In this document: piece after piece, positions 3,559 through 53,161 of the stretch
How the letters are laid out: each line of letters opens with the position of its first letter
Position numbering within the stretch: the stretch's first letter is position 1
NCBI RefSeq assembly: GCF_026151205.1
Contig: NC_087079.1
Span: 13,952,445 to 14,012,444 of the forward strand
DNA from: Bolinopsis microptera
Taxonomy: Eukaryota; Ctenophora; Tentaculata; Lobata; Bolinopsidae
Reading direction: 5' to 3'
DNA: 60,000 nucleotides
Made by a program: the position numbers and the translations under genes
The notes under the pieces: generated by a model
The model's input: only the letters and a program-made list of their open reading frames with translations
Told to the model about the DNA's origin: nothing
The model's database searches: none

Positions 3559-4701
3559 TCATATCATCTTCCCAGGCAGGTTTACCAAAATAGAAGGACT
3601 TAGTAATTGAGTCTCCGTATCACCACACCCCTGATATTTGATTGCAAAATGCATTTTATCAGCCGAGACTACGTCATGAAAATGTATGTCCATAGCATAT
3701 TCCTGAGTTTCAGTGCACAACTCAATGTTAAAGTTGTTGGGTTGACCTGGCAAGGCTGGAGTAACTTCCAGCAGGAACCCACAATTACCTGGCTCACCAC
3801 ACGTTTCAATATCAGGATGTTTGAAGTAAAACTTGTACTTCCGACCCACTGTCAGGAACTCTTCAAAAACAAGGGTTTTTGTCACGCGTCCACAGATTTC
3901 AGCACTGTCCATCCCCGATGTTATTTCGCTCTCTTTCATCTTGTCAATGAACTTGTTGACAATATTTCCCACACTTGTTTCGTAAGAATTATTCCCCAAG
4001 CAATAATTTACGCTCTCGTTTTTCTTGTATAAGTAATCCTGACAAATCTTGCTCCAGCCCCTCACTAAACGTATTCGATTCAACTCCTTGACAGTCTGCT
4101 GAATAACCTTATCCACGAGTCCATTATTTTGCTTTTTGGACAAGTCCTGACAGGAAACCTTGTACAGCTTGAAAAAGGAACTGAAGATATAGCAGCTTAC
4201 TGAAACCAACATATACATGTCATCAGCGTATTGCTCTACTTTATACAGCAGTTCTGGAATACTAACGAAATCCTGACAGGCAAGCGAGATGGGGTTCATC
4301 ACTGATTCAATGTCTTGAAATGATCTCCGAAATAGGTTGGGAATCATTCTAGAAGACGAAACAGCTGTCATTTGCTTTCTTTTACAGAAATCGTCCATAG
4401 ATTTCGAGTATAAGTTCATTACCATTCTCAAATCCTGTGTTGTCAAATTTTCCATGTTCCTTAACGTTTCAAACAGCTCATCAAAAGTGTCTGCATCTTG
4501 CTCTTTACCAATGCATAGTTTAATGCTATTGAGGAGATAGCTAATATTTCCATGCATTGCCTTGCTCTTCTTTATTTCTAATAGCATGTGCTTCTGAAGG
4601 CATGAAATGTGGTTCCCAGCTAAGAGAATCATCAAATCGAGCCCCTTTTCAGACAATTCGGCCAACTTCCCCGCGTAATTCCTTAACACCACGCATCCCC
4701 C
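3559..4701 (-). pseudogene. BTB gene, C-terminal part (separated by LINE insertion)
   Basis: An open frame of 380 codons continuing the BTB protein that begins at 9626. If the LINE is removed, the codons ATA CAA on the upstream side run directly into GGG GGA TGC GTG on this side without a frame change. The first half is helical with several Cys (CLQKHMLLEIKK, QDFVSIPELL). The C-terminal ~110 residues are rich in beta-type segments (VTKTLVFEEFLTVGRKYKFY, then GFLLEVTPALPGQ). I do not recognise a named domain here. No stop codon or frameshift has accumulated, so the interruption looks recent. With this part cut off from its start, it is labelled broken, but an uninterrupted allele may exist. 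Confidence 0.65.
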
Positions 4702-4702
4702 T

Positions 4703-7059
4703 TTGTCAAGATGCTGTATGTGCCTCCTGATCCACGATGAGAACTTTGATGAGTTCGATCCAAGACGCTTTAACAGTCAGTTCAATGTTCACTGCTTTAA
4801 AGCAACTAGCTACTCTGACTTGGGAAAGAACTCAAAACAACTTAACAAAACCTTAAAGCGACTCAAACCAGAGTGCATATATATCCACACGGGGATTAAT
4901 GACTTTCTCTACAAGAAAACGGGTCTTGTAGGCCACGTGAAGGAACTTTACTTACATCTGCTTAACACCACAGCAGCACAGATATGCTTCTCAGCGCTGA
5001 TACCCTCCTCTAATGACTCTTATATCAATGCTAGAACTGGCACAATGGATGACATGATGTCTAACAATAGACACCTGAAAGACTACGAACTTAACGCCCA
5101 TTACTGCAAACAGCTGACGAAACGCAACAACTCGGACCTTAAGCTGAACACAAACGGGCGACCCTTCATCGAACTCCTGCAAACAACTGGTCTAGTCATT
5201 CTCAATGGTAGGACCCTGGGTGACATTTTTGGTGCACCCACTTGTATTCAACGCCACGGTGTTAGCACTGTTGACTATATCTGCGTATCCACGAGTCTCC
5301 ACGATAAAATTCGCCAACTCAAAATCGAGAGCATATCCCAGTACTCCGATCACAGGCCACTCTCTATGACTATCTCTACCAATCATCTAAAGAGGATCTC
5401 TACCAGTAATGACACTAAAGACATCCAGGATGCACCCAAATCCTTCAAATGGAACAGATCAGAGAATCTCTCTGCCGACTCAGCAACCCAGTTTCGCTCG
5501 GCACAGAATGATCAGACATTTAAGGACAAAATAGAACACCTCCTTAACCAACCAGCGAACACAGCAGACGAAGCAACACGGCTCAATAGAGATTTGGTCG
5601 CAACATACCACAACCTTGCGAATTCGGTTACTACAACCAAACGTGGAACACGTACTAACAAGAAAAAATGGTTTGATCTTAACTGCAGGCGTGCGAAAAG
5701 TGCGGCTAGTAGAGCTGACAGGAATGCAAATCGCAACCCACACAGCAATTTTCTTCGCAATCAGCACTTTCTCAAAAAAAAGGAGTACCGGGCTATTAAG
5801 AGCACGAAAAAGGGGAAATATCTGTTCGAGATGAATCAAAAGATAAACGAAAGTGGTAATGTTAACTGGGCGGCGCTCAAGCAACTGTCCGAACAACACA
5901 AAGATGAAGAGCCATTTGACATTTATGATCTTCTCCTCTTTCATAAATTTTTTAACGACCTCTACAACCGTAAGTGTAGTAAGAATCACCACGCAGATGA
6001 TGACGTCGTCTCTACTCCCACAAACGATGAGCTGCAGAACACTAAAAACCTAGTCGACAGTTTGAATCGAGACTTCACCTTACAGGAGACAAAAGATGCG
6101 ATCAAGAAACTGAAGAACAACAAGAGTGTGTCCGATGACCTGATATCAAACGAGATGCTGAAAAACTCCAACGAGCAACTCCAACTTGTTCTAGTTAAGC
6201 TTTTTAATGCCTGTCTTCAGTGCGGAACATACCCTTGGAACAACTCTATCACCACTCCACTCCATAAAAAGGGTGACCGTCAGAACCCCGATAACTATCG
6301 GGCCATTACCATTGGCAGCTGTCTTGGCAAGCTATTTTCGAACTTGCTCCTTAAACGGCTGATAGAATTTAGGGAAATAGCTTGTCCCGACCGACCGTAT
6401 CAACTGGGATTCAGGAGTGGAGCACAATGTAATGACCACTTGCTCACCCTGAACACTATCATAGAGAAATATGTCAAAAAAGAGAAGAAGCGACTATTTG
6501 CCTGCTTCGTCGATTATCGGAAGGCGTTTGACAGTGTATGCAGGGATGCACTTCTGTACAAACTGGGCAACATGGGTCTCTCAGGCAATTTCTTTACTTG
6601 CATCAGCCACATGTATAACAACTCGTCAACCCGAGTTAAGCTGATCCAAAAGCTCTCCGCTGCTATCGACGTTACCATCGGCACAGAACAAGGGCACCCG
6701 ATGTCCCCTGAGCTCTTCAAAGTTTATATCCACGAGCTTTCCATCAGACTGGAACAAATCGAAGAGTTGAATGTCCCAATTTTAAACGGCATCAAAGTAA
6801 GCCACCTCCTATGGGCTGACGACTTAGTCCTCCTAGCACTTGACGCGTTCAGCCTACAATCGTTGCTGAATTGCTTGCACGAATATGCAGAAAAATGGGA
6901 GTTATCAGTGAACATCGACAAAACCAGTGTGATGGTCTTCAATACAAGCTCACGAACACTTAAATGTTCTTATGGCTTTAAACTAGGAAGCCTGGACATT
7001 ATACCAGTAAAAAGATACTGCTATCTCGGAATCCAATTCTCTCTGAATGGATCGTTTAA
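4703..7059 (+). CDS. LINE polyprotein, part 1: SGNH-like piece, endonuclease C-terminus, reverse transcriptase
   Basis: Residues ~1-105 resemble the SGNH-hydrolase-like domain of CR1 ORF1 (YIHTGINDF as the GTND-like block). They run directly into the C-terminal half of an APE-type endonuclease (FIELLQTTGLVILNGR, STVDYICVS, SDHRPLSM). The endonuclease N-terminus is missing, so an internal deletion has fused ORF1 to ORF2. Reverse transcriptase follows: NYRAITIGSCLGKLFSNLLL, FVDYRKAFDSV, GTEQGHPMSPELF, and the catalytic LWADDLVLLA with its two Asp. The frame is interrupted at TTTAAG (7056) by the TTAA element and resumes at 7902. As written, translation would end inside the inserted element at 7099. 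The 5' end is truncated, so the TTG at 4703 is only the limit of the open frame. Confidence 0.85.
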
Positions 7060-7897
7060 GGCCACAGGGGGGGGTCCGAGGTCGATTTTGAGATTTTGAG
7101 ATATGTTGTAGAGCTCGATCTAAATTTTCAAATGCTTTTGTCCTTACCGAAAACAAAGTTTCCTATTTGAAGATATCGCGCGTTGAATTTTGAGGTTTAC
7201 CTGTAATTCTATTGTAAATGAAAACTTTAAATGAAATCGTGTTCAAAATCTATCTTCTTTTTCAGTTTATGACTTAGAACCTTGTAACTTGGCAACAATG
7301 TTCTTCAAGGTATTTTAAGTTTTTGTTATGTAAAGATTTATGATATCTTGCTCCAAAGCTGAGATATGAGGTTAACCATGAGTGCGGGTTACAAAATTTA
7401 AAATGGTTAACCTCATAAAAAGAGTTAGGAGCAAAATTACAACAATCGTTACATAACAAACTTTTAAATTTATGTCAGGAACATAAGTTCCAAATTTGAG
7501 GTGAAATGGATAAAAACTCTAGGAGAAGATAGATTTTGAAGTCAAAAATTCGAGGTTTTCAGGAGAGGCAAAAAACTGTTTTTTATGTTATGTGATTTTT
7601 GAGAATTTTGCCTTTATTTGTATATTTTTCAAAGTTTAACTGCTGAAATAACACAAAAACAATAAAAACAAAGCTTATCGTAGTTTTCAGTTGTAATGGC
7701 ATCAATATTTCTGCCCTCCATTATCGATTTATCAAAAAAATGAGGTTAAATGAGAATTGGTTAACCTCATTTATAAAAAAAAGTAAAATAGCTACAGACA
7801 AATGAGTGGTGACAAAGTATCCACCACAAAAATATATATCGATTCAAAGCATAATGTTTTTTTGCATTTTTTGAGGCCTCGACCCCCCCCTGTGGCC
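7060..7897. mobile_element. TTAA-flanked non-autonomous element inside the LINE
   Basis: Bounded by TTAA at 7056-7059 and 7898-7901. The ends are inverted: GGCCACAGGGGGGGGTC at the left and its complement GACCCCCCCCTGTGGCC at the right. Taking out the element plus one TTAA restores the LINE frame exactly (...NGSFK|QAIDELRKK...), which proves the boundaries. There is no coding potential. The middle carries a further inverted pair around GGTTAACCTCAT. TTAA duplications are typical of piggyBac- and Kolobok-type transposases; the superfamily cannot be assigned without an autonomous partner. Confidence 0.9.
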
Positions 7898-9626: not shown

Positions 9627-10600
9627 CTTCTCCTACAGCTTTAAGAAATAACCACATTAATACAATTCTTTGGCCAAGTAAAAAGCAAAGCAGAAATTGT
9701 AGTTATCACAACGCAACTGTGACAAAGGTTTCGAGGTGAGAGAATTTTTGAAGTATAATACTCCGCTCATTTTCAAGCAAAGCAAAAATAAATGTTACCG
9801 AAAGCAAGGATGTTTTTATCAGCAACATTGCAATTGATGTGACGCATTTGACATGAGATATCCTGTTATGTGACCCTGGACCCACGAATGAGCACTGAGC
9901 AGGAATGCGGGGTTATATGTAGGTCCTATAGTGTAAACTGATACATCCAGAATTCGTCAGAATGTTCCGTATTTTTAACCATTTTTGATCAAATAATATA
10001 TATCAGAAGAGTAATCGAAGAGATATTTCTTTTATCATAGTGCTAAGTAATCATAATATAGAGGTAAGTGATCATAATTCATAACACTTACTTTGCAACC
10101 ACGTCGTAACATGAGCACCAATAATTTATATAAGGTGCAGTTTATATCTCCGCCAAAAGAACACTCCCCAAATTGCGCGCATTGCTGTAACTTCTCTCAA
10201 ACTTCATTAATCGAGATAAATTATTTTGCAATGTTTTCAGAGTATATAATATATGCATTTATACAAATCACTTAGAATACTTTTGAAAGATAATAACAAG
10301 CTTAAAAACACTACTGACGTATTTCTCCATGAAAAGCACAATATCGCGAAAAGTGATTTTAAACAATTCCCCGTTCAATTTTGGTCGAGGGACGCCAACT
10401 TAGTGCACAATCAAGGACGTTATAGACATATTTCATACGTATAAAATTGAATGTGCTTTTGGCGTAGATATAACTGTAAGCAGTGATTAATTGAGATGAA
10501 TGTAGGGTAATATTGTGTAATATGTAGATAGTGTAATGATTATAATAAGGCGGTCGTGGGGTCCAGTATGTGACGGTAGTATTTTTGGCATATATTAGTA
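9627..10600. other. AT-rich sequence, no feature seen
   Basis: Only short open frames without recognisable motifs; no repeat structure was noticed. It is the upstream region of the BTB gene on the minus strand. Confidence 0.5.
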
Positions 10601-10624
10601 GACGACAGTTATTGCAGTTTAAGT

Positions 10625-10890
10625 GCAGAGAGGTCAGTTTAACATATGTTGGGTCAGTACGAGGTTGAGTTATGGAGTGTTTACAGAATACTAGGGTTAC
10701 TATGTTGCGGCTATCGACAGGATAGTTAGGGATTGTTTAGCCGGGGCAAGCACTGTAGTAAGAGGTTTAACATAGTTTAGGTCAACACGAGGTGTGTTTG
10801 AGTTTGTACGAGGTTGAGTTATGGAGTGTTTAGAGAAGACTAAGGTTACAAGGGCGTGACTATCGACGGAATAGTGGAGAGAGGGTTAGC
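10625..10890. repeat. Degenerate tandem duplication at the edge of the satellite block
   Basis: The string GTACGAGGTTGAGTTATGGA recurs with a following GTGTTTA(C/G)AGAA..CTA(A/G)GGTTAC and ...CTATCGAC(A/G)G at about 10660 and 10818, which marks two or more diverged units of roughly 150-160 bp. It probably is an older edge of the satellite at 11140-15420. Confidence 0.55.
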
Positions 10891-11139
10891 TTTTGAGGAT
10901 ACAGGAGTGCCAGTTTACCCGATCGAGAGGGGGGTCATTTTGATACCGGGCAGGTTCTGTAGCTAGAACCTGTTAAGGTTAGGTCGTTCAGTTAGGTAGA
11001 TGGTCATAATGGTCAGTATAATATTGGCGGTCGTAGAATAGTGGAGCATTACGTAGTTACTATTATCAGGCTTGGTTGTGGCCGGGGTCAACAATGGTCG
11101 GTCCGACACCAAGGGATGTCTTAACAACACTGGGCTCTG

Positions 11140-11555
11140 GCAGAGCGAGAGTCAGCAATGGTTGACTCAGATAGGTAAAGCTAGATTAAGGGTAAGAGTC
11201 CGGGTGGAATAGTCAGCACTGGTTGACTTAGACAGATAAAGCTAGACTAAGAATAAGAGCCCGGGAGGAATAGTCAGCACTGGTTGACTTAGATAGATAG
11301 AGCTAGACTAAGAGTAAGAGCCCGGGAGGAATAGTCAGCAATGGTTGACTTAGACAGATAAAGCTAGACTAAGAATAAGAGCCCGGGAGGAATAGTCAGC
11401 ACTGGTTGACTTAGATAGATAAAGCTAGACTAAGAGTAAGAGCCCGGGAGGAATAGTCAGCAATGGTTGACTTAGACAGATAAAGCTAGATTAAGAATAA
11501 GAGCCCGGGAGGAATAGTCAGCACTGGTTGACTTAGACAGATAAAGCTAGATTAA
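11140..11555. repeat. 61-bp minisatellite, block 1
   Basis: Head-to-tail monomers of 61 bp with the core GGAATAGTCAGCAATGGTTG and the segment AGCTAGATTAAG. Variants alternate CAATGG/CACTGG and AGTCCGGG/AGCCCGGG. Every monomer carries a TTAA, the target of the foldback elements that interrupt the array. Confidence 0.9.
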
Positions 11556-12285
11556 GGGGGCCGGGGGGGTCTTCATCAAAATTCTCTCGAAATTGATTTT
11601 ATAGTTGTTTCTGATAGAGAGGAGTGATATCTATCAGCTGCTTTTGGTCCCATGGAAAAATATTGTTCCTAGCCAAAATTATCGCCAGTCAAAGGTCAGC
11701 GCTCATGTGTAATTGTATTGCGCGAGCGATTTTCAATCGCGCGCCCTGAAAATCGAGTCTAAAAATCTATCTTCTCCTACATTTTTTGAGCAATCACCCT
11801 GAAACTTTCAGGATATGTTCTATGGATCATTTAAAAGATATCTGTCGAGCCGAATTTTGAGATAGGCCTTAAAAGATTTTTTATTCAATTTTGAAAATCT
11901 TGGACCTCATTTTTTTACGATTTTTCCAGGTCCAAGATTTTCAAAATTGAATAAAAAATCTTCTAAGGCCTATCTCAAAATTCGGCTCGACAGATATCTT
12001 CTAAATGATCCCTAGAACATATCCTGAAAGTTTCAGGGTGATTGCTCAAAAAATGTAGGAGAAGATAGATTTTTAGACTCGATTTTCAGGGCGCGCGATT
12101 GAAAATCGCTCGCGCAATACAATTACACATGAACGCTGACTTTTGACTGGCGATAATTTTGGCTAGGAACAATATTTTTCCATGGGACCAAAAGCAGCTG
12201 ATAGATATTACTCCCCTCTATCAGAAACAACTATAAAATCAATTTCGAGAGAATTTTGATGAAGACCCCCCCCCCCCCGGCCCCC
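11556..12285. mobile_element. TTAA foldback element, copy 1
   Basis: A 730-bp near-perfect palindrome flanked by TTAA at 11552-11555 and 12286-12289. The left end is GGGGGCCGGGGGGGTCTTC; the right end is its complement with a longer C tract (13 C). The arms of about 355 bp meet at a short spacer (CATTTTTTTACGATTTTTCC) between GGACCT and AGGTCC. There is no coding capacity. Transcribed, it would give a long hairpin RNA. Confidence 0.92.
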
Positions 12286-12289
12286 TTAA

Positions 12290-12533
12290 GGGTAAGAGTC
12301 CGGGTGGAATAGTCAGCAATGGTTAACTCAGATAGGTTAAGCTAGATTAAGGGTAAGAGTCCGAGTGGAATAGTCAGCAATGGTTGACTCAGATAGGTTA
12401 AGCTAGATTAAGGGTAAGAGTCCGGGTGGAATAGTCAGCAATGGTTGACTTAGACAGATAAAGCTAGATTAAGAATAAGAGCCCAGGAGGAATAGTCAGC
12501 ACTGGTTGACTTAGACAGATAAAGCTAGATTAA
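12290..12533. repeat. 61-bp minisatellite, block 2 (four monomers)
   Basis: Four monomers carrying a characteristic series of variants (AGTCCGGG, AGTCCGAG, AGTCCGGG, AGCCCAGG). The same series recurs in blocks 3 and 4, showing that element plus monomers were amplified together. Confidence 0.9.
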
Positions 12534-13261
12534 GGGGGCCGGGGGGGTCTTCATCAAAATTCTCTCGAAATTGATTTTATAGTTGTTTCTGATAGAGAGG
12601 AGTGATATCTATCAGCTGCTTTTGGTCCCATGGAAAAATATTGTTCCTAGCCAAAATTATCGCCAGTCAAAGGTCAGCGATCATGTGTAATTGTATTGCG
12701 CGAGCGATTTTCAATCGCGCGCCCTGAAAATCGAGTCTAAAAATCTATCTTCTCCTACATTTTTTGAGCAATCACCCTGAAACTTTCAGGATATGTTCTA
12801 TGGATCATTTAAAAGATATCTGTCGAGCCGAATTTTGAGATAGGCCTTAAAAGATTTTTTATTCAATTTTGAAAATCTTGGACCTCATTTTTTTACGATT
12901 TTTCCAGGTCCAAGATTTTCAAAATTGAATAAAAAATCTTCTAAGGCCTATCTCAAAATTCGGCTCGACAGATATCTTCTAAATGATCCCTAGAACATAT
13001 CCTGAAAGTTTCAGGGTGATTGCTCAAAAAATGTAGGAGAAGATAGATTTTTAGACTCGATTTTCAGGGCGCGCGATTGAAAATCGCTCGCGCAATACAA
13101 TTACACATGAACGCTGACTTTTGACTGGCGATAATTTTGGCTAGGAACAATATTTTTCCATGGGACCAAAAGCAGCTGATAGATATTACTCCCCTCTATC
13201 AGAAACAACTATAAAATCAATTTCGAGAGAATTTTGATGAAGACCCCCCCCCCCGGCCCCC
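12534..13261. mobile_element. TTAA foldback element, copy 2
   Basis: Flanked by TTAA at 12530-12533 and 13262-13265. Almost identical to copy 1; the right-hand C tract is 11. Starts 978 bp after copy 1. Confidence 0.92.
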
Positions 13262-13265
13262 TTAA

Positions 13266-13509
13266 GGGTAAGAGTCCGGGTGGAATAGTCAGCAATGGTT
13301 AACTCAGATAGGTTAAGCTAGATTAAGGGTAAGAGTCCGAGTGGAATAGTCAGCAATGGTTGACTCAGATAGGTTAAGCTAGATTAAGGGTAAGAGTCCG
13401 GGTGGAATAGTCAGCAATGGTTGACTTAGACAGATAAAGCTAGATTAAGAATAAGAGCCCAGGAGGAATAGTCAGCACTGGTTGACTTAGACAGATAAAG
13501 CTAGATTAA
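13266..13509. repeat. 61-bp minisatellite, block 3
   Basis: Same four-monomer variant series as block 2, including the shared GGTTAACTCAG variant in the first monomer. Confidence 0.9.
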
Positions 13510-14234
13510 GGGGGCCGGGGGGGTCTTCATCAAAATTCTCTCGAAATTGATTTTATAGTTGTTTCTGATAGAGAGGAGTGATATCTATCAGCTGCTTTTG
13601 GTCCCATGGAAAAATATTGTTCCTAGCCAAAATTATCGCCAGTCAAAGGTCAGCGATCATGTGTAATTGTATTGCGCGAGCGATTTTCAATCGCGCGCCC
13701 TGAAAATCGAGTCTAAAAATCTATCTTCTCCTACATTTTTTGAGCAATCACCCTGAAACTTTCAGGATATGTTCTATGGATCATTTAAAAGATATCTGTC
13801 GAGCCGAATTTTGAGATAGGCCTTAAAAGATTTTTTATTCAATTTTGAAAATCTTGGACCTCATTTTTTTACGATTTTTCCAGGTCCAAGATTTTCAAAA
13901 TTGAATAAAAAATCTTCTAAGGCCTATCTCAAAATTCGGCTCGACAGATATCTTCTAAATGATCCCTAGAACATATCCTGAAAGTTTCAGGGTGATTGCT
14001 CAAAAAATGTAGGAGAAGATAGATTTTTAGACTCGATTTTCAGGGCGCGCGATTGAAAATCGCTCGCGCAATACAATTACACATGAACGCTGACTTTTGA
14101 CTGGCGATAATTTTGGCTAGGAACAATATTTTTCCATGGGACCAAAAGCAGCTGATAGATATTACTCCCCTCTATCAGAAACAACTATAAAATCAATTTC
14201 GAGAGAATTTTGATGAAGACCCCCCCCGGCCCCC
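13510..14234. mobile_element. TTAA foldback element, copy 3
   Basis: Flanked by TTAA at 13506-13509 and 14235-14238. The right-hand C tract is 8. Starts 976 bp after copy 2. Confidence 0.92.
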
Positions 14235-14238
14235 TTAA

Positions 14239-14482
14239 GGGTAAGAGTCCGGGTGGAATAGTCAGCAATGGTTGACTCAGATAGGTTAAGCTAGATTAAG
14301 GGTAAGAGTCCGAGTGGAATAGTCAGCAATGGTTGACTCAGATAGGTTAAGCTAGATTAAGGGTAAGAGTCCGGGTGGAATAGTCAGCAATGGTTGACTT
14401 AGACAGATAAAGCTAGATTAAGAATAAGAGCCCAGGAGGAATAGTCAGCACTGGTTGACTTAGACAGATAAAGCTAGATTAA
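14239..14482. repeat. 61-bp minisatellite, block 4
   Basis: Same four-monomer series, but the first monomer has GGTTGACTCAG instead of GGTTAACTCAG. Confidence 0.9.
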
Positions 14483-15217
14483 GGGGGCCGGGGGGGTCTT
14501 CATCAAAATTCTCTCGAAATTGATTTCATAGTTGTTTCTGATAGAGAGGAGTGATATCTATCAGCTGCTTTTGGTCCCATGGAAAAATATTGTTCCTAGC
14601 CAAAATTATCGCCAGTCAAAGGTCAGCGATCATGTGTAATTGTATTGCGCGAGCGATTTTCAATTGCGCGCCCTGAAAATCGAGTCTAAAAATCTATCTT
14701 CTCCTACATTTTTTGAGCAATCACCCTGAAACTTTCAGGATATGTTCTATGGATCATTTAGAAGATATCTGTCGAGCCGAATTTTGAGATAGGCCTTAGA
14801 AGATTTTTTATTCAATTTTGAAAATCTTGGACCTCATTTTTTTACGATTTTTCCAGGTCCAAGATTTTCAAAATTGAATAAAAATCTTCTAAGGCCTATC
14901 TCAAAATTCGGCTCGACAGATATCTTCTAAATGATCCCTAGAACATATCCTGAAAGTTTCAGGGTGATTGCTCAAAAAATGTAGGAGAAGATAGATTTTT
15001 AGACTCGATTTTCAGGGCGCGCGATTGAAAATCGCTCGCGCAATACAATTACACATGAACGCTGACCTTTGACTGGCGATAATTTTGGCTAGGAACAATA
15101 TTTTTCCATGGGACCAAAAGCAGCTGATAGATATTACTCCCCTCTATCAGAAACAACTATAAAATCAATTTCGAGAGAATTTTGATGAAGACCCCCCCCC
15201 CCCCCCCCCCGGCCCCC
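14483..15217. mobile_element. TTAA foldback element, copy 4
   Basis: Flanked by TTAA at 14479-14482 and a doubled TTAATTAA at 15218-15225. The C tract is 19. It differs from copies 1-3 by several substitutions (for example TTAGAAGA in the left arm), some of which improve pairing of the two arms. Starts 973 bp after copy 3. Confidence 0.92.
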
Positions 15218-15221
15218 TTAA

Positions 15222-15420
15222 TTAAGGGTAAGAGTCCGGGTGGAATAGTCAGCAATGGTTGACTCAGATAGGTTAAGCTAGATTAAGGGTAAGAGTCCGA
15301 GTGGAATAGTCAGCAATGGTTGACTCAGATAGGTAAAGCTAGATTAAGGGTAAGAGTCCGGGAGGAATAGTCAGCAATGGTTGACTCAGATAGGTAAAGC
15401 TGGATTAAGGGTAGGATTAA
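15222..15420. repeat. 61-bp minisatellite, block 5
   Basis: Three further monomers closing the higher-order array; the last is followed by non-repetitive sequence. Confidence 0.88.
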
Positions 15421-15699
15421 CGGCAGGAAGTGTGTTGCGTAATATTTGAGGCAGTATGAATCGGAGTAATTAGGAATTTGTTGCATAGTATTTGAGGCAA
15501 TATGAGTCTAAGTGACTAAGCGTTTGGTTGAGCAAATATTCGATTATTCGTTGTTCAGTTAAGTACCTTGGGTACCTTTATTATACCCTTTGTTTGTATT
15601 CTCACCCTATTCGATAGAGGGTCATGGTTGATACCGGACTATTATAAGGGACCAGGACCAGTTATGGTTGGGGCCTGGTGAGCACGGATGGAACGTGTC

Positions 15700-16185
15700 G
15701 TTAGAGGTTTAGAATCGACAATGGTTGATTCAGGGCGTCTAGATCAGAGCAAGTCAGCAAGAGGAAGAACCAACAGTGGTTGATTCTGGGCACCTAGATT
15801 AAGGTAAGAGGAAGAAGCGACAATGGTTGTTTCAGGGCATCTAGATTAAGGTAAGACGAAGAAGCGACAATGGTTGTTTCAGGGCATCTAGATTAAGGTA
15901 AGAGGAAGAAGCAACAATGGTTCTTTCAGGGCGTCTAGATTAGAGCAAGAGGAAGAACCAACAGTGGTTGGTTCTGGGCACCTAGATTAAGGTAAGAGGA
16001 AGAAGCGACAATGGTTGTTTCAGGGCATCTAGATTAAGGTAAGAGGAAGAAGCAACAATGGTTGTTTCCGGGCGTCTAGATTAGAGCAAGAAGAAGAACC
16101 AACAGTGGTTGATTCTGGGCATCTAGATTAAGGTAAGAGGAAGAAGCAACAATGGTTGTTTCAGGGAATCTAGATCAGGCACGGT
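15700..16185. repeat. 47-bp minisatellite related to the 61-bp array
   Basis: About ten monomers of 47 bp with the core GAAGAAGCGACAATGGTTG and CATCTAGATTAAGGTAAGA. The CAATGGTTG box and the TCTAGATTAAGG segment are shared with the 61-bp monomers, so the two arrays probably have one origin. Confidence 0.88.
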
Positions 16186-16635
16186 CAAGGCGAGTTGACC
16201 GTGCTATCCGTGTTTTATATTGCAGCGCTAGATCGCTGGGCGTTTATGGGCGATACGAGTCTGGTTAATTAGGATTTGAAGTAGAGGTTGTCGGATTATT
16301 CATTGTGTTGTTTCATAGTTTAAATTTGTGTACCCTTTATTATCACGCTCGTTTCCATTGTCCAAACCCTTAATTAAATGCAAATAAACTTCGAACCGGG
16401 AAGCAAGTGTCCACTGCTTACATAACGTTCGCCTTTATATAATCGAACCATGAGTAAAATATTCTCATGACTAGCACGGTAACGTCAGACCTTAGAATCA
16501 CAGTCAGTTGGCGAAATCTTCTGGAATAATCTATTTCTAATAACTCAATCCCCCACGCGTGATAATCACCGATCTTTATCAATATTTTTGATATCTGAGT
16601 TAAGTTCACGACCAAAAGGGTTTTAAGAGGTTGTC

Positions 16636-16674
16636 GGGGGGGGGGGGGGGGGGGGGGGGGGGGTGGGGGGGGGG
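16636..16674. repeat. Poly(G) tract interrupted by one T
   Basis: 28 G, one T, then 10 G. It lies just downstream of the last exon of the F-lectin/Ig gene. G runs of this kind also cap the TTAA foldback elements, so this may be a relic of one; an assembly artefact is also possible. Confidence 0.8.
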
Positions 16675-28594: not shown

Positions 28595-29569
28595 CAGGGT
28601 GAGTTGAAAATAGTGTGTGGAAAGTAAATGGCTCTAATTTTTTTGACAAATGAAATTTCCACTTAACTTTTGCATATTTAGGTAATGAAAATATATACTT
28701 TTTATGATAATACAATTAAAATACTTAATAGTTAATAATTTGCTCAACCCATCGTCCTTTATTAACTAGGACATATTGATAACGTGTAAGACAATTGTCT
28801 ATAGCCGACTTGACTGTATTATGGGGGCAGGGGAGTCTTATGGAAATTTTCTCAAAATCGACTTTTTAGTTAGTTGTTTCTGATAGAGGGGAGTAATATC
28901 TATCAGATGCTTTTGATGCCGTGGAAAAATATCGTTCCTAGCCGAAATTATTGCCGGTCAAAGGTCAGCGCGTGTGTGGTAATTGTATTGCGCGAGCAAT
29001 TTTTGATCGCGTGCCCTGAAAATCGAGTCTAAAAATCTATTTTCTCCTACATTTTTTGAGCAATCACCCTGAAACTTTCAGTATATGTTCTAAGGATCAT
29101 TTAGAAGAGATGAGCCTGACAGAATTTTGAGATAGGCCTTTAAAAAAATTTTATTCGATTTTGAAAATCTTGGACCTCGTTTTTTGATGATTTTTTGAGG
29201 TCCACGATTTTCAAAATCGAATAAAATTTTTTAAAAGGCCTATCTCAAAATTTTGTCTGGCTCATCTCTTCTAAATGATCCTTAGAACATATACTGAAAG
29301 TTTCAGGGTGATTGCTTTAAAAATGTAGGAGAGTATAGATTTTTAGACTCAATTTTCAGGGCACACGATTTGAGAACCCCATTAGGACGAATTTAAGATT
29401 TTTTGGAAAACTGCCAAAAATCAACCAATTTATGAGTTAGAATCAAATGAGAGGCAAGAATGAAATATGTAAAGTTTATGAACTGATAGCAATTCACCTT
29501 TCAAAACTTGCTCCTTCATAAAAAAATTATCGATTTTTACTTTCCACACACTATTTTCAACTCACCCTG
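28595..29569. mobile_element. Mariner-like non-autonomous element with TA duplication
   Basis: TIRs CAGGGTGAGTTGAAAATAG (continuing for about 34 bp) at both ends, flanked by TA at 28593-28594 and 29570-29571. No transposase frame is present. The interior is occupied by a diverged foldback copy (28823-29370). Confidence 0.9.
28823..29370. mobile_element. Diverged, right-truncated copy of the TTAA foldback family
   Basis: Shares with the copies at 11.5-15.2 kb the segments TAGTTGTTTCTGATAGAG, CTATCTTCTCC-like CTATTTTCTCCTACATTTTT, GAGCAATCACCCTGAAACTT and the AGGTCC-centred palindrome. It ends abruptly in the right arm at CACACGAT, and no TTAA remains at either end. Many substitutions are shared by both arms, so pairing is kept. 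Confidence 0.85.
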
Positions 29570-40100: not shown

Positions 40101-42700
40101 AAGATAAATAAGGCTACGATTTGCGACCAGAAAAACCAAATTTGGACTTAATTAACAATTTAAAAAACACACTTTTCTATTTTCTTCCGTAACACTGACC
40201 ATCACCAATCAGAGACGATCCACGTGGCCTACAGCATGATCACTCTTGCGTGTCACGTGAAAGATTACCTCTATTTCATTGAATGCTTATTTGTGGGCAC
40301 GTGTAAAACCGGTTTTTAGTTACAGAGCATACTCCAAACAACTTATTGAGAAACGCATTTTTTGGCAGATCTTTTAATTGAGTTTTGAGGTGAGATTTAA
40401 AGGATCAGCGTGCAAGGACCCGGTCCTATTTGATCTTTTTGTGCCAGGAATCTTCATTTATTTTGATTTCTCATCACTTATGTCTCGTGACTACGCTCCA
40501 GTGTCTGGTCCTCTTAATTATGTCATTTTCCGTTACACCTGCATCAAACAGTGTGTTGAAGGTGCTTGTTCTTAAGGAATGAAAAGTCGCCTTAATTATT
40601 ACTATTAGGAGTGAAAAAAGCGCTTTATTTAAATTCGCTTTACCATGTAGTTTTGATTTTTTAAAGATATATTTTCAAATGTTTGTTCGTGATAATTTCC
40701 TGTTCAAATTTATGAAAGTAGTTCCTTTCCGATCTACTCTAATTTAAAATGATACTTCATGCTTGACCCGTGCTGTTCTCTAGAACTATAATCATGTGAA
40801 TTCAATAAATTTCACAAAAATATTCAGAAAAACCGGTTTTACTCTGAGACGATTGTGAATGGCCATTGCAGCAGAGTTCTGTGTCACGGGGGCATGTCTC
40901 GTGACTACGTCACTCGACTATCACGTGCTAGTGCCGTACCATAAGTACATATTATCGAATTGTTTTCAATCCCAATACGTGATTTGATACCAAGAATGGC
41001 AAGGAAAGACCAGGAAGCCTAAAATTTCAACCCCCTCTTTTCAATGCTCTTCGATCCGTCCCAAATTAATCCCGAGCTGATCATCATGGCCCTCAAATAT
41101 CCTTTATTTTTGCATTGCCATTACAACATCCCAATTCCAAATCAACATCCTTAATAAAGAATCCTTCTTGATCTGTCCTGCCGTCTAACAATTTCCAAGA
41201 AATGCTGACTAGCTCCTGGAACTCTTTGAACTGGTTTGATTATTACCGTTTGATTATTACCGGAGTCAAGTGCCTTGCTCGGATATTAAATTATGAAAAT
41301 ACCATTATGAAAATAACGAGATATATTTATGTTCGACATAATTCCGGTGACCTAAATGATTTGGGAACGAAAATATGGGAATTTTTTCCGAAAACCGCCA
41401 CACTTCGTACCCCAAATTAAATCATGGTATTTGGGGATTTTTCAAATTATTTTACAATTTCAAATTGTTTTACAATTTCTCCGAATAGAAGCCTTTGAAA
41501 GTTAGTCTCAACTTAACTTATAATCCTCCAGAGAGTATAGGAGACCGACAGAGTTTGTTATCTTTCACTACTCCCGAAATTTCACCGCTGTGGCCAATAA
41601 AGTAGTACTAGTGACAGTACAGAGCTTGATTATTTTTAATTGGACGTGTCCAAAATCATTTTTTAAAGCAGGTCATGATCGAATACTGGTGTTCATTAAT
41701 TCTTTGATGAATCATATTTATAACTTACTGTATTGATAAGTTGATAGTAAATCGATAAATTCATAATTTAGGAAAATACGTGAAAAATAATTTGGGGCAA
41801 AATAATAATGCAGGTGACCTAAATTTTGGTAGTCCGAAAATATGGTGATTTTTCGAAAAACCACCGACTTTCGTACCATTTAAATGTCTCGTAAGGTATT
41901 CCGATCATTTTGAGCCGATAAAAATTGGTGATTAGCTAATTGGTAATTATCCAATTAACTGATTGTCCGATCCAGTCTTGAATCCGATTCAATAACTTAT
42001 TCAGGCTTCATTGCAGCATTTTTTGCAAAACGTGCGCCAGATTTTAGATCTAATCTTCTTCAAACTTTGGTTGATCCACATGATTGTCCAGTTTAATAAG
42101 ACAATAAAGAACATTCACGGTCCAAGTCTCATAGACAATAATACTTTGCTTCCAGAAGATTCCAGAATTACACACATATAATCTCTGATACACGTATCAA
42201 TTTATAACCAAAATATCTAGTCATGACTAAAGTGACACAATTTGAATCTGGTTGAGATTATCATCATCATTGATGAGTTGGTCGTTAGCAGCAACGTTAC
42301 TCCCTCTCTTGTTTTGTATTTAATATCAAATATCTAATATCCATCTTATTCTTCTTGTTATTGTACGCAGCAGTTCTCACTACCCAAGAAAGAAAAATAC
42401 CAACTTTTTGAATGGACAAATTGTGTCAAAAGGCTCGCAAATTTTATAGGTGTATTTATTTGCCAACATGGGGCCGGCCCAAGATTCCACTCGTTCGTCT
42501 GGTTGGAAATATTCGATTTCATCATCGTGGACTCCATGATGATGAAATCATATCCATGGAACATTGTTTTGAAAACACATTCTTGATACTACAGGCTACA
42601 GTTTATTTAAGAAGCTTTTAGATAACGTCATGACGTGTCAGTCGTGTAATTATATAATATTTTGTATTGATTCCCTGACTACCAAGTTATATTTGACAAC
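37116..42700. other. Long stretch without a recognised gene
   Basis: AT-rich, with many stops in all frames. A ~110-bp diverged pair (GGTGACCTAAAT...GAAAATATGG..ATTTTTTC.GAAAA) lies at 41340-41420 and 41810-41880. Several TCACGTGA-type motifs occur at 40220-40270 and 40910. No splice-supported exon could be assembled. Confidence 0.45.
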
Positions 42701-42750
42701 AAAAGCTTTACTTTTCTTATAAAACTCAACCCCTACAGCTAAAGACGACC

Positions 42751-44112
42751 ATGGACCTCTCTGACTCCCTAACAAACTCAACGGACACAGCATTCCTGAT
42801 TTTTTGTGGAGTCCTTGTTCTCAGCATGCAGCTGGGATTCTCTCTTCTTGAGATTGGCAGTGTCTCTAGGAGAAATACGAATAACATCATCTTTCAAAAT
42901 CTCATGGATGCATCTGTAGGGGGTGTATCCTTCTATATCTTCGGATACGCCTTCGCATTCGGTAAAGGCTCACCATTTATAGGTTTCTCCGACTTTGCTA
43001 TCTCCGGGCTATCCACCAGCCAGGACTATGCATTCTGGTTCCTTCAGTTCGCATTCGCTGCTACAGCTTCCTCGATAGTGGTGGGTGCCATTGCAGAGCG
43101 GACCAAGTTGGCATCTTACTTTGTATTTTCAATGGCACTCACGGGCCTGGTATACCCGGTGGTTGTTCATTGGGTGTGGTCTGGAACAGGGTGGGCTTCG
43201 ACTGCTCTACCTGCAGCCTCTCGGCTCTTTGGGGTCGGAGCTATAGATTTTGCTGGTTCCACTGTGGTGCACTCTGTTGGAGGTCTGACAGCCTTGATAG
43301 CTTGCATTCTCCTGGGAGCAAGAAAAGGCAGGTTTGAAGAAGATGGACATGTGAACCACCTTTCACAGCAAAGTACTCTCCTTCAGACTACAGGAACTCT
43401 GGTCCTCTGGATTGGATGGTACGGGTTTAACACCGGCTCAGCCTTGTCGATTAAAGGAAACATGGCCGTTATCTGTGGCAACGTGGTGGTCAATATGACG
43501 ATAAGTGCTGCCACTGCTGGGTTGACAAGTGCAGCCCTGAGTCGCTTCTTCAATGGATCCTTAGATGTTCCTGTCGTCAACAATGGTATTCTCACCGGCC
43601 TAGTCTCCGTTACCGCTGGATGTGGGGTTGTAAATGCCTACACCTCTCTTATAATCGGCTTCGGTGGTGCCGTCTTTTACTTCAGTGCCTGCAAGCTCCT
43701 CCTCTGGTTCAAGATAGATGATGCCGTTGAAGCAGTTCCAGTTCACTTAGCCGGTGGAGTTTGGGGCACCTTAGCAGTGGGTTTCTTTGCTGTTCCCGAG
43801 CATGTAGAAACATTGTACGGTACAGCAAGTTGTGGAATACTCTACAGATCTCACTGTGACCCAGGCAATGCAGAGAAACAACTTGCTGCTCAGGTTGTGG
43901 TAATACTAGCTAACCTAGCGTGGTCCGGGGTGATGGCTACGTTGGTATTCGGAGGGTTGAAGCTGGCTGGCTGGTTACGAGTAGATGAGGAGAGTGAGAG
44001 GGTGGGTCTAGATACTGCGTATCATGGTGGTGACGCTTATGAAGTTGACGTGATCACACCTAAAGCTCTTCCAGCAAAGGAAGGAACTGAGATGACAGAT
44101 AATTTGATATAA
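42751..44112 (+). CDS. Ammonium transporter, Amt family
   Basis: A single-exon frame of 453 residues, the usual length for Amt proteins, with about 11 membrane helices. It conducts ammonium/ammonia across the plasma membrane as a trimer. Family landmarks: FWFLQFAFAATASSIVVGAI (outer gate Phe region, ~95-114), HWVWSGTGWAS (~140-150), the signature DFAGSTVVHSVGG (166-178), LWIGWYGFNTGS (~219-230, second gate Phe226) and VPVHLAGGVWG (329-339). The twin pore histidines are His174 and His332. All expected pore residues are present, so it should be functional. The C-terminal cytosolic tail is acidic. Introns are absent, unusual for animal genes, but base composition resembles other genes here. A CTACAG acceptor-like site ends 12 bp before the ATG, compatible with a 5'UTR intron or trans-splicing. 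Confidence 0.93.
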   Translation: MDLSDSLTNSTDTAFLIFCGVLVLSMQLGFSLLEIGSVSRRNTNNIIFQNLMDASVGGVSFYIFGYAFAFGKGSPFIGFSDFAISGLSTSQDYAFWFLQFAFAATASSIVVGAIAERTKLASYFVFSMALTGLVYPVVVHWVWSGTGWASTALPAASRLFGVGAIDFAGSTVVHSVGGLTALIACILLGARKGRFEEDGHVNHLSQQSTLLQTTGTLVLWIGWYGFNTGSALSIKGNMAVICGNVVVNMTISAATAGLTSAALSRFFNGSLDVPVVNNGILTGLVSVTAGCGVVNAYTSLIIGFGGAVFYFSACKLLLWFKIDDAVEAVPVHLAGGVWGTLAVGFFAVPEHVETLYGTASCGILYRSHCDPGNAEKQLAAQVVVILANLAWSGVMATLVFGGLKLAGWLRVDEESERVGLDTAYHGGDAYEVDVITPKALPAKEGTEMTDNLI

Positions 44113-50492: not shown

Positions 50493-53161
50493 GGCACTAT
50501 CCGTCGCGGAGTCGAGTCCGCGGCGGAGCCGCCGGACTCCGGCCGGACTCCGAGCGGACTCCGGCGGAGCCGCCGGACTCCGAGCGGACTCCGGCGGTGC
50601 TCCGCCAAAATGTATTTACAGTGGACTCGAGTACATTTTGGCGGACTCCGAGCGGAGCCGAGCGGACTCCGAGCGGACTTTAAAGTCCGCCGCGGACTGC
50701 GAGCGGCTCCGCGGCGGCTCGGTGGAGTGTCCGCCGCGGACTAAGCCACTAAGCGGACTCCGGTCCGCCGTGGACTCCGGCGGAGTGCTTGGCGGACTCC
50801 GCCGGACCTCTCCGCCAGACTTGAATCCGGCGGAGTCCGGCGGAGCTTGGCGGAGTCCGCCAGCTCGGCGGACTCCGCTCGGAGTCCACCGGACTCCAAC
50901 AGAGTCCACTGACTTCCGACCTCCGTCTTCCGACCCTCGGCTAAATTTGTCACGTGACATACAACATAGCATTTTGCAATATTGTGGTCAGATGAAAAGG
51001 TCGCTAGTGATAAACCTTAACCATTACCCTCACAATGTCAATAGTGTCAAGTGTACAACTCTAGTCCTAACTTTGACCCTATAATGTATAAACGTTGACC
51101 CTAACCCTCCACCAAACCGTCCGCAGCGAAATATCAATGTCATTGACTGGTCACGTGACCAAAACAATTTTTGTCATATTATCTCATATGGGGAAGCGTT
51201 TTTAGCAAGCAAAAATACGTCGACCATCACAGGACGACGCCAGCCAGCACTCTCTACGCTCTTCGAGCTCCGATCGTCCTGTGACGAAGTAAGGACGAAG
51301 CCTGAGGTCCTCAGGTAACATCGACCACCGATTGAAAATTCAAAGATTTTTTGACATAAAGGTCAAATGTAAAATTAAAATCTTGATGTTGATTGATTGA
51401 CGACGTCAATTTTTGAGCACAGCGCGAGCGCATATTGCGGAAAAGGACCGCGTAGCTAGTCAAGATGTTGATAAATATTTGGCTTGTGGCGCGATGTGTT
51501 GCTCTAACTATAGCCCTCTCGCTTGCAGTAGCGCGCGACCGCCGGAGGCGGAAATGACCTGGTTAGCTAGGTAAACGCGATGTGCCTTGTAGGATGAAAT
51601 CCTACTAGCTGACGCCATTCGCAGCTGTGCTGCTCGCTGTACGTCAGCGATCGAAATTTATACGCGTATCCCCCGTTAAGATGTGCCACTCGACGCGCCA
51701 CACAATTTTTTTCGTTGCTCGTCGCACGTCGACGAACAACGAAGCTCGTTGCGACGCGCCGCGCAATGAGCTGCCAGGCTAGGACATCGTCCTGGTCCAA
51801 CAAATTTTGGCGAGCGATTTTCTCCAAAAATTTAATGAGGGCGTCGACGTGCGACGAGCAACGAAAAAAATTGAGTGGCGCGTCGGGTGGCACATCTTAA
51901 CGGGTGATACGCGTATAAATTTCGATCGCTGACGTACAGCGAACATCACAGCTGCGAGTGGCGTCAGCTAATAGGATTTCATCCTACAATGCAAGGCACA
52001 TCGCGTTCATTTAGCTAACCAGGTGCTTTCGCGCCGCTGCGGGCGCGCTTGTTCCACAAGTCATTTCCGGCGGTCGCGCGCTACTGCAAGCGAGAGGGCT
52101 ATAGTTAGAGCAACACATCGCGCCACAAGCCAAATATTTATCAACATCTTGACTATGGACTAGCTACGCAGTCCTTTTCCGCATGCGCTCGCGCTGTGCT
52201 CAAAAATTGACGTCGTCAATCAATCAGCATCAAGATTTTAGTTTTACATTTGACCTTTATGTCAAAAAATCTTTGAATTTTCAATCGGTGGTCGATGTTA
52301 CCTGAGGACCTCAGGCTTCGTCCTTACTTCGTCACAGGACGATCGGAGCTCGAATAGCGTAGAGAGTGCTTGCTGGCGTCGTCCTGTGATGGTCGACGTA
52401 TTTTTGCTTGCTGGGATCCGGCCGAATGACGCCACATGCAACGTGTAGGGTAAAACTAAAAACGCTTCCCCATATGAGATAATATGACAAAAATTGTTTT
52501 GGTCACGTGACCAGTCAATGACATTGATATTTCGCTGCGGACGGTTTGGTGGAGGGTTAGGGTCAACGTTTATACATTATAGGGTCAAAGTTAGGACTAG
52601 AGTTGTACACTATTGACATTGTGAGGGTAATGGTTAAGGTTTATCACTAGCGACCTTTTCATCTGACCACAATATTGCAAAATGCTATGTTGTATGTCAC
52701 GTGACAAATTTAGCCGAGGGTCGGAAGACGGAGGTCGGAAGTCAGTGGACTCTGTTGGAGTCCGGCGGACTCCGAGCGGAGTCCGCCGAGCTGGCGGAGT
52801 CCGCCAAGCTCCGCCGGACTCCGCCGGATTCAAGTCTGGCGGAGAGGTCCGGCGGAGTCCGCCAAGCACTCCACCGGAGTCCGCGGCGGACCGGAGTCCG
52901 CCTAGTGGCTTAGTCCGCGGCGGACACTCCGCCGAGCCGCCGCGGAGCCGCTCGGAGTCCGCGGCGGACTTTAAAGTCCGCTCGGAGTCCGCTCGGCTCC
53001 GCTCGGAGTCCGCCAAAATGTACTCGAGTCCACTGTAAATACATTTTGGCGGAGCACCGCCGGAGTCCGCTCGGAGTCCGGCGGCTCCGCCGGAGTCCGC
53101 TCGGAGTCCGCTCGAAGTCCGGCGGCTCCGCCGCGGACTCGACTCCGCGACGGATAGTGCC
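50493..53161. mobile_element. 2.7-kb GC-rich palindromic foldback element with 8-bp TSD
   Basis: Exact duplication GAAAAAGT at 50485-50492 and 53162-53169. Ends GGCACTATCCGTCGCGGAGT and its complement. Arms of about 1.25 kb are nearly identical and meet around 51740-51840. Each arm has an outer GC-rich array of CGGCGGACTCCG-like units, then CCCTAACCCT-type and TCACGTGACCAAAAC motifs, then an inner unique part. The right arm has a ~45-bp extra segment near 52413-52460. Open frames here are by-products of the repeat. Confidence 0.93.

Follow-up and report, generated by a model that had tools for sequence, protein, structure and literature searches.

The window analysed here is a stretch of 60,000 nucleotides from the ctenophore Bolinopsis microptera (contig NC_087079.1, positions 13,952,445 to 14,012,444). 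It contains an array in which four near-identical copies of a palindromic foldback element, each flanked by TTAA, alternate with spacers of four 61-bp minisatellite monomers, the whole lying within a solo long terminal repeat (LTR) of a retroelement. The account that we favour, and consider probable, has three layers: a foldback that would be of Kolobok type, its insertion into the minisatellite of the LTR, and amplification in place. The features of the LTR and the array are given below in window coordinates, with the strand where one is assigned.

10471-10474: target repeat TAAC, left copy, identical to 16423-16426
10475-16422, forward strand: solo LTR (TGTAAGCAG...CTGCTTACA), 5.95 kb; matches to the LTRs of the C8 element start and end here
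11150-11551, forward strand: L-type monomers of the 61-bp LTR minisatellite, to the left of the array
11552-11555: TTAA to the left of copy 1
11556-12285: foldback copy 1, 730 bp, one substitution from copies 2 and 3
12286-12533, forward strand: spacer 1, four monomers with a TTAA at each end, the third of them R-like in its 5' and L-like in its 3' part
12534-13261: foldback copy 2, 728 bp
13262-13509, forward strand: spacer 2, four monomers with a TTAA at each end, same as spacer 1
13510-14234: foldback copy 3, 725 bp, body the same as that of copy 2 except for the C-run
14235-14482, forward strand: spacer 3, four monomers with a TTAA at each end, one base apart from the other spacers
14483-15217: foldback copy 4, 735 bp, differing from copies 2 and 3 by five substitutions and from copy 1 by six
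15218-15225: TTAATTAA, the target TTAA plus an extra TTAA (the extra one at 15222-15225)
15226-15408, forward strand: R-type monomers R1-R3 of the 61-bp minisatellite, to the right of the array
15759-16175, forward strand: second LTR-internal minisatellite, 47-bp unit, 8.9 copies
16423-16426: target repeat TAAC, right copy

Measured from TTAA to TTAA, the blocks of the array span 11552-12289, 12530-13265, 13506-14238 and 14479-15221. The foldback copies start 978, 976 and 973 bp apart, the differences in period being due mainly to the length of the terminal C-run. The ungapped arms of each copy extend over 341-352 bp with 96-98% complementarity; they are separated by 20 nucleotides in copies 1-3 and by 41 in copy 4, the arms of which contain a one-base gap. 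When copy 1 is folded as single-stranded DNA, the energy is -416 kcal/mol; 20 shuffles average -76.8 kcal/mol. The bodies of the four copies are separated by 0-6 substitutions, and none of their longest frames reaches 130 amino acids. Each spacer amounts to 4 x 61 bp if one TTAA is counted and to 248 bp if both are; the first and second are exactly the same and the third is one base apart. A first-pass annotation of this DNA had described the four near-identical TTAA-flanked palindromes, their four-monomer spacers and the 978/976/973 spacing, and everything that it reported as directly seen is confirmed, including the recurrence of one monomer series between copies, to within the single base of spacer 3. 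The span that it assigned, 11556-15217, takes in the whole array but leaves out the surrounding LTR (10475-16422).

The monomers of the array are the internal minisatellite of a retroelement LTR, and the array sits in a solo LTR. We identify the latter from the matches between the window and the C8 LTRs, the outer limits of which are 10475 and 16422, with a TAAC next to each; it reaches 5.95 kb because four foldbacks and two minisatellites, of 61-bp and 47-bp units, lie inside it. The C8 copy is a full element with the hallmarks of an LTR retroelement: paired LTRs of 1.73 kb that are 99.4% alike, TG..CA ends and a 4-bp target repeat, GAGG. The terminal repeats of a copy on C4 are 99.5% alike across 1.35 kb, and a CCHC zinc-knuckle open reading frame is present in L001, a sister copy. 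No reverse transcriptase was found among the scanned frames, which comprise four of the seven in L001 and none of the six in L003 that reach 120 amino acids. Among the best 40 of 55 candidates, 61-bp monomers occur at several other places as same-orientation pairs about 6-12 kb apart. A reading of the monomers as a free satellite was rejected since they sit in paired LTRs. Moreover, where a satellite would form long head-to-tail arrays of many units, the array has four units at one locus, and the other monomers are mostly in paired LTR-like places. The earlier idea that the foldback had landed in a satellite or minisatellite can thus be narrowed: insertion into a minisatellite stands, but the minisatellite belongs to an LTR. 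The foldback is absent from all seven fetched pieces of other copies of the host retroelement, and uninterrupted monomers containing one TTAA are found in the C4 LTR copy. TTAA is offered only by monomers reading GATTAAG; the matched C8 and L001 monomers read GACTAAG and the C4 copy has both kinds. Just beyond the solo LTR, at 16636-16674, is a 39-bp G-run.

Sequence comparison strongly supports a single insertion that would have been amplified with its neighbouring monomers to four copies. Three arm states common to all four window copies are present in at most 1 of the 32 arms of 16 loci from the same subfamily, and three further states common to copies 1-3 in 0-2 of the 32. The L-type monomers to the left of copy 1 and the R-type monomers to the right of copy 4 differ at several positions, and the order in each spacer is R-like, R-like, a hybrid with an R-like 5' and an L-like 3' part, and L-like, as would be yielded by in-register exchange between the monomers flanking one foldback. 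The shared private changes and the R-to-L order of the spacers bear out the earlier suggestion that foldback and minisatellite were amplified together. Foldbacks do enter tandem repeats repeatedly: three of 41 loci lie inside tandem arrays, each a different one (L016, 24-bp; L026, 62-bp; L037, G-rich), with one foldback apiece in the fetched stretch. Four separate insertions into adjacent monomers of the LTR are nevertheless extremely improbable, being contradicted by the shared private changes, the orientation and the near-identical four-monomer spacer.

We propose that a TTAA-targeting foldback landed once in the 61-bp minisatellite within the retroelement LTR, and that the insert and adjoining monomers would then have been multiplied to four copies, through in-register unequal exchange or slippage between the monomers on either side of the insert. 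Several points weigh against this scheme or blur it. The left-flank monomer L-6 resembles the spacer hybrid in make-up, departing from it at two positions. Spacer monomers 2 and 4 also have one state apiece that is missing from their flank counterparts. Site 146 of the left arm contradicts a simple order of duplication, copies 2-4 sharing a state that copy 1 does not have; the copies could have converted each other. Exchange and slippage, for their part, cannot be told apart from these data. An error of assembly might also account, wholly or partly, for the number of copies, since the C-run is all that distinguishes copy 2 from copy 3, and spacers 1 and 2 do not differ. This is unlikely in view of the five or six substitutions in copy 4, the one substitution separating copy 1 from copies 2 and 3, and the one base in spacer 3.

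Four other loci (L017, L031, L034 and L044) have a foldback of about 572 bp embedded in another repeat; since the flanks are 97-100% alike, amplification as a passenger takes place by dispersal too. At L017, a second foldback is found at the border TTAA.

The palindrome is a DNA element that targets TTAA, has no coding sequence, is scattered across the genome and consists almost wholly of two inverted arms. The exact 15-mer TTAAGGGGGCCGGGG occurs 338 times in the forward and 321 times in the reverse orientation across the genome, compared with once in each for the pattern read backwards; for a longer end pattern the counts are 244 and 235, compared with 0 and 0 in the control. We fetched 58 foldback loci, 20 by similarity (from 39 places outside the array) and 38 by a pattern; these 38 are biased for TTAA because TTAA was in the selection pattern. 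The similarity query included the right-hand TTAA along with some monomer sequence, and no left TTAA. TTAA is present at 20/20 left ends and 18/19 recognised right ends of the similarity-picked loci, the exceptions being L019, which reads TTAT at the right, and L029, which has no recognised right end. When all 58 loci are taken together, 41 have two recognised ends, and TTAA adjoins 39 of the left and 40 of the right ones. The first-pass annotation would have been contradicted by copies elsewhere that lack TTAA, or by confinement of all copies to the array as an assembly duplication. Neither situation was encountered: TTAA flanks the dispersed copies, which the similarity search places on all 13 long contigs, and the genome-wide search that the annotation had proposed thus disclosed a mobile family.

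Most elements are 725-751 bp long, and there are variants of 194-654 bp as well as remnants of about 36 bp (L069:5875-5918) and 42 bp (L070:52-97), in which the foldback tips are joined and the interior is gone. With lengths from about 36 to 751 bp, inverted ends that number in the hundreds and no coding capacity, the family has the character of miniature inverted-repeat transposable elements (MITEs) and foldbacks. Tandem repeats within the arms, as in elements of the FB/Tetris type, were not reported in the four window copies. The window also holds a fifth member:

28823-29370: foldback of the same family, truncated and diverged, 86% identity, starting GGGGGCAGGGG after TTAT

Locus L041 has three spaced sites of the GTTTAAGGGGGCCGGGG type, without foldback arms, whose match to the end pattern would be due to chance or descent.

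The foldback ends, 5'-GGGGGCC..GGCCCCC-3', and the 4-bp TTAA target repeat bear on which transposase could have moved it, TTAA being shared by Kolobok and piggyBac. The ends of piggyBac elements are of the CCC type; the foldback begins GGGGG, and the local piggyBac border reads TTAACCC. As set out in section 3 of PMC9587614, Kolobok elements have 5'-RR..YY-3' ends with a TTAA target, while piggyBac uses TTAA too and has ends that are not RR..YY. The foldback, reading 5'-GG..CC-3', obeys the Kolobok rule, and its ends fit Kolobok and not piggyBac. A Kolobok-type DDE transposase would move it by recognising TTAA together with the G-run end. Of the piggyBac- or Kolobok-like mobilisation originally suggested, the Kolobok part accords with the RR..YY ends and the piggyBac part does not. 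The genome is by no means devoid of piggyBac, a TTAA user: PF13843 gives 26 matches, four with near-equal scores and open frames of 678-681 amino acids. A piggyBac-type non-autonomous element is very unlikely all the same, given, beside the RR..YY rule of PMC9587614, that the single local border placed, from two copies, is TTAACCCATTAGGG and that GGGGGCC is absent from the three piggyBac loci L008-L010. piggyBac was rejected as the partner of the foldback on end sequence.

TTAA is used by other superfamilies as well, Sola3 among them. We think it unlikely that the foldback came from one of these or from an undescribed superfamily. The failure to find an autonomous partner with identical ends, in searches that did not extend to Sola, speaks for such an origin, but the same genome holds Kolobok-like coding families with TTAA and G-run ends. 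It does count against a Kolobok assignment that the autonomous relative with the same GGGGGCCGGGG ends, for which the first-pass annotation had recommended a search, did not appear among the limited candidates scored per search. Eighteen ends without a listed mate were fetched with an additional 1 kb as candidate autonomous borders, and several had their mate inside the kilobase. Extension of five of them to 6 kb revealed no transposase by eye (frames of at least 110 amino acids, not scanned against families). Two of these five pieces, L069 and L070, were rejected as autonomous borders, being foldback remnants of about 40 bp whose adjoining DNA is single-copy, and a 14.9-kb stretch of C2 between opposite ends was rejected as well, having separate old copies only and no 150-amino-acid frame.

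Candidate Kolobok coding elements were sought by means of PF20700, which has 18 matches, and of THAP, which has 43, and 16 loci were fetched; for L082-L084, L089, L091 and L092 no borders were placed. At L077, L079 and L082, a THAP plus PF20700 transposase frame of 742-749 amino acids is accompanied by a nearby frame matching P2RX7_C (P2X7-ballast, KolX-like). TTAA is found at the sole border seen of L077 and at both borders of L079. The three loci agree with the account of Kol0 and its KolX in section 12 of PMC9587614. A second PF20700-coding family, L086-L088, has ends of the form TTAA-G(9 or more)-TTCA; L086 and L087 are flanked by TTAA on either side, L088 on the left. Five comparisons among its three open frames give pN/pS values from 0.12 to 0.85.

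The third PF20700-coding family, that of L085, comprises four near-identical copies with a TTAA-GGGGGCATACACC end (TTAAGGGGGCATACACC) and inverted ends of about 740 bp; TTAA is present at 6/6 fetched ends. It resembles KolobokD, as described in section 11 of PMC9587614, in combining a PF20700 transposase exon with a second open reading frame that is DnaQ-like by eye, the DnaQ similarity being under the Pfam cut-off (E 0.043) and without a PDB match. Ends of this family occur as close inverted pairs at at least 26 places, about 84% alike and most spanning about 1.36 kb (by coordinates, in the best 40 of 432 candidates). From their length, these short pairs would be without coding sequence, and they make it likely that foldbacks arose, in this sister family, from a Kolobok-like transposon with long ends. 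Its first long frame, used in a protein search, gave 28 matches, all to copies of the family or to decayed clusters on C11 and C5, with no foldback partner among them. The clusters, at C11:16.64-16.92 Mb and C5:5.23-5.35 Mb, consist of fragments related to this frame, many with stops.

The arms of the foldback do not match the inverted ends of the GGGGGCATACACC family significantly (best E 0.82), and the two share no end beyond TTAAGGGGGC. Against the poly-G family (L086-L088) there is one weak match of 23 bp (E 2.6e-4). Out of 200 shuffles, 6, 12 and 182 did as well as the arms against the three poly-G ends tested; because the figures for three unrelated control ends were 8, 174 and 38, the test does not separate the two. 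The diverged copy at L070 ends TTAAGGGGGCAGGGG and has TTAAGGGGGCA in common with the L085 family, which is suggestive only.

We compared the two arms in 30 full-length elements, from 26 loci and the four window copies, which fall into five subfamilies. Arm divergence inside elements averages 1.9%, against 5.6-9.2% between subfamilies. Relative to the commonest subfamily, the other four have 12, 15, 19 and 18 sites with the same change in both arms, and 9, 1, 5 and 10 sites at which a single arm is changed; the diagnostic sites total 64 and 25, respectively, and subfamilies may share some of them. From this pattern, homogenisation of the arms over time is real, and arm-to-arm conversion or hairpin-templated copying, two routes inseparable here, is probably responsible. 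A point on the other side is that in the 16 loci of the commonest subfamily, departures number 80 in one arm and 8 in both, which implies that homogenisation is slow or episodic, or else linked to the birth of new masters. If each subfamily had instead built a new palindrome from its own half-element, no conversion between arms would be called for. In keeping with this, the loop of L048, the sole member of its subfamily, is unlike the others, and that of L047 is longer. We regard such separate origins as rather unlikely, given that members of the other four subfamilies have a homologous loop of 21-22 nucleotides at the same place (L021 was not matched), from which it follows that the palindrome probably arose once.

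Beyond arm homogenisation lies a broader conjecture, offered tentatively because we judge it possible and no better than that. The palindrome may be obligate, with a hairpin or cruciform intermediate recopying one arm whenever a new master is born and so keeping the arms in concert; Kolobok transposons with long ends capped by G-runs would make such palindromes repeatedly in this genome, and those falling into TTAA-bearing minisatellites would multiply without transposition.

Comparison with systems described elsewhere places the foldback closest in form to Kolobok elements and the T2-MITEs of Xenopus. In the passages of PMC6004289 and PMC9587614 that describe them, these share the TTAA repeat, the 5'-RR..YY-3' ends and the formation of short non-coding high-copy derivatives, and this genome also contains Kol0-like elements with THAP, transposase and KolX-like components of the kind treated in PMC9587614. 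In contrast, the foldback ends in G/C runs (GGGGGCC-Gn) where the ends described in those passages are AGG, and it is nearly all palindrome, no partner with identical ends having been found. Tetris of Drosophila virilis, as portrayed in PMC4079207, is likewise a non-autonomous foldback tied to tandem amplification. The tandem repeats of Tetris, according to that account, lie within its own arms and became satellite, whereas here the foldback is a passenger amplified with the minisatellite of another element, in four copies at one locus. The array also recalls the satellite arrays derived from retrotransposons described in PMC7004042, in which tandem repeats of retroelements seed larger arrays, but it is confined to one solo LTR and has a DNA transposon in every unit.

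The nested repeat is made of ordinary, known ingredients, and its nesting history is unusually readable. It provides a clean case of two unrelated kinds of repeat merging, a transposon having joined a tandem unit by landing in a minisatellite, and satellites with complex units could originate in this way, among others. In the comparison of its arms, the foldback family also supplies a case in which concerted evolution between transposon halves can be tested. Finally, Kolobok, including Kol0-like elements with a KolX-like open reading frame, is added to the ctenophores, a phylum missing from the distribution list in section 3 of PMC9587614.

Elsewhere in the window, 50493-53161 is occupied by a palindrome of about 2.7 kb that looks unrelated to the foldback, with arms 95-100% complementary in blocks, ends GGCACTATCC..GGATAGTGCC and the 8-bp direct repeat GAAAAAGT on both flanks. 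An ammonium transporter is encoded at 42697-44112 in a single open frame of 471 amino acids (PF00909, E 1e-103), and a reverse transcriptase frame of 806 amino acids (PF00078) lies at 4679-7099.

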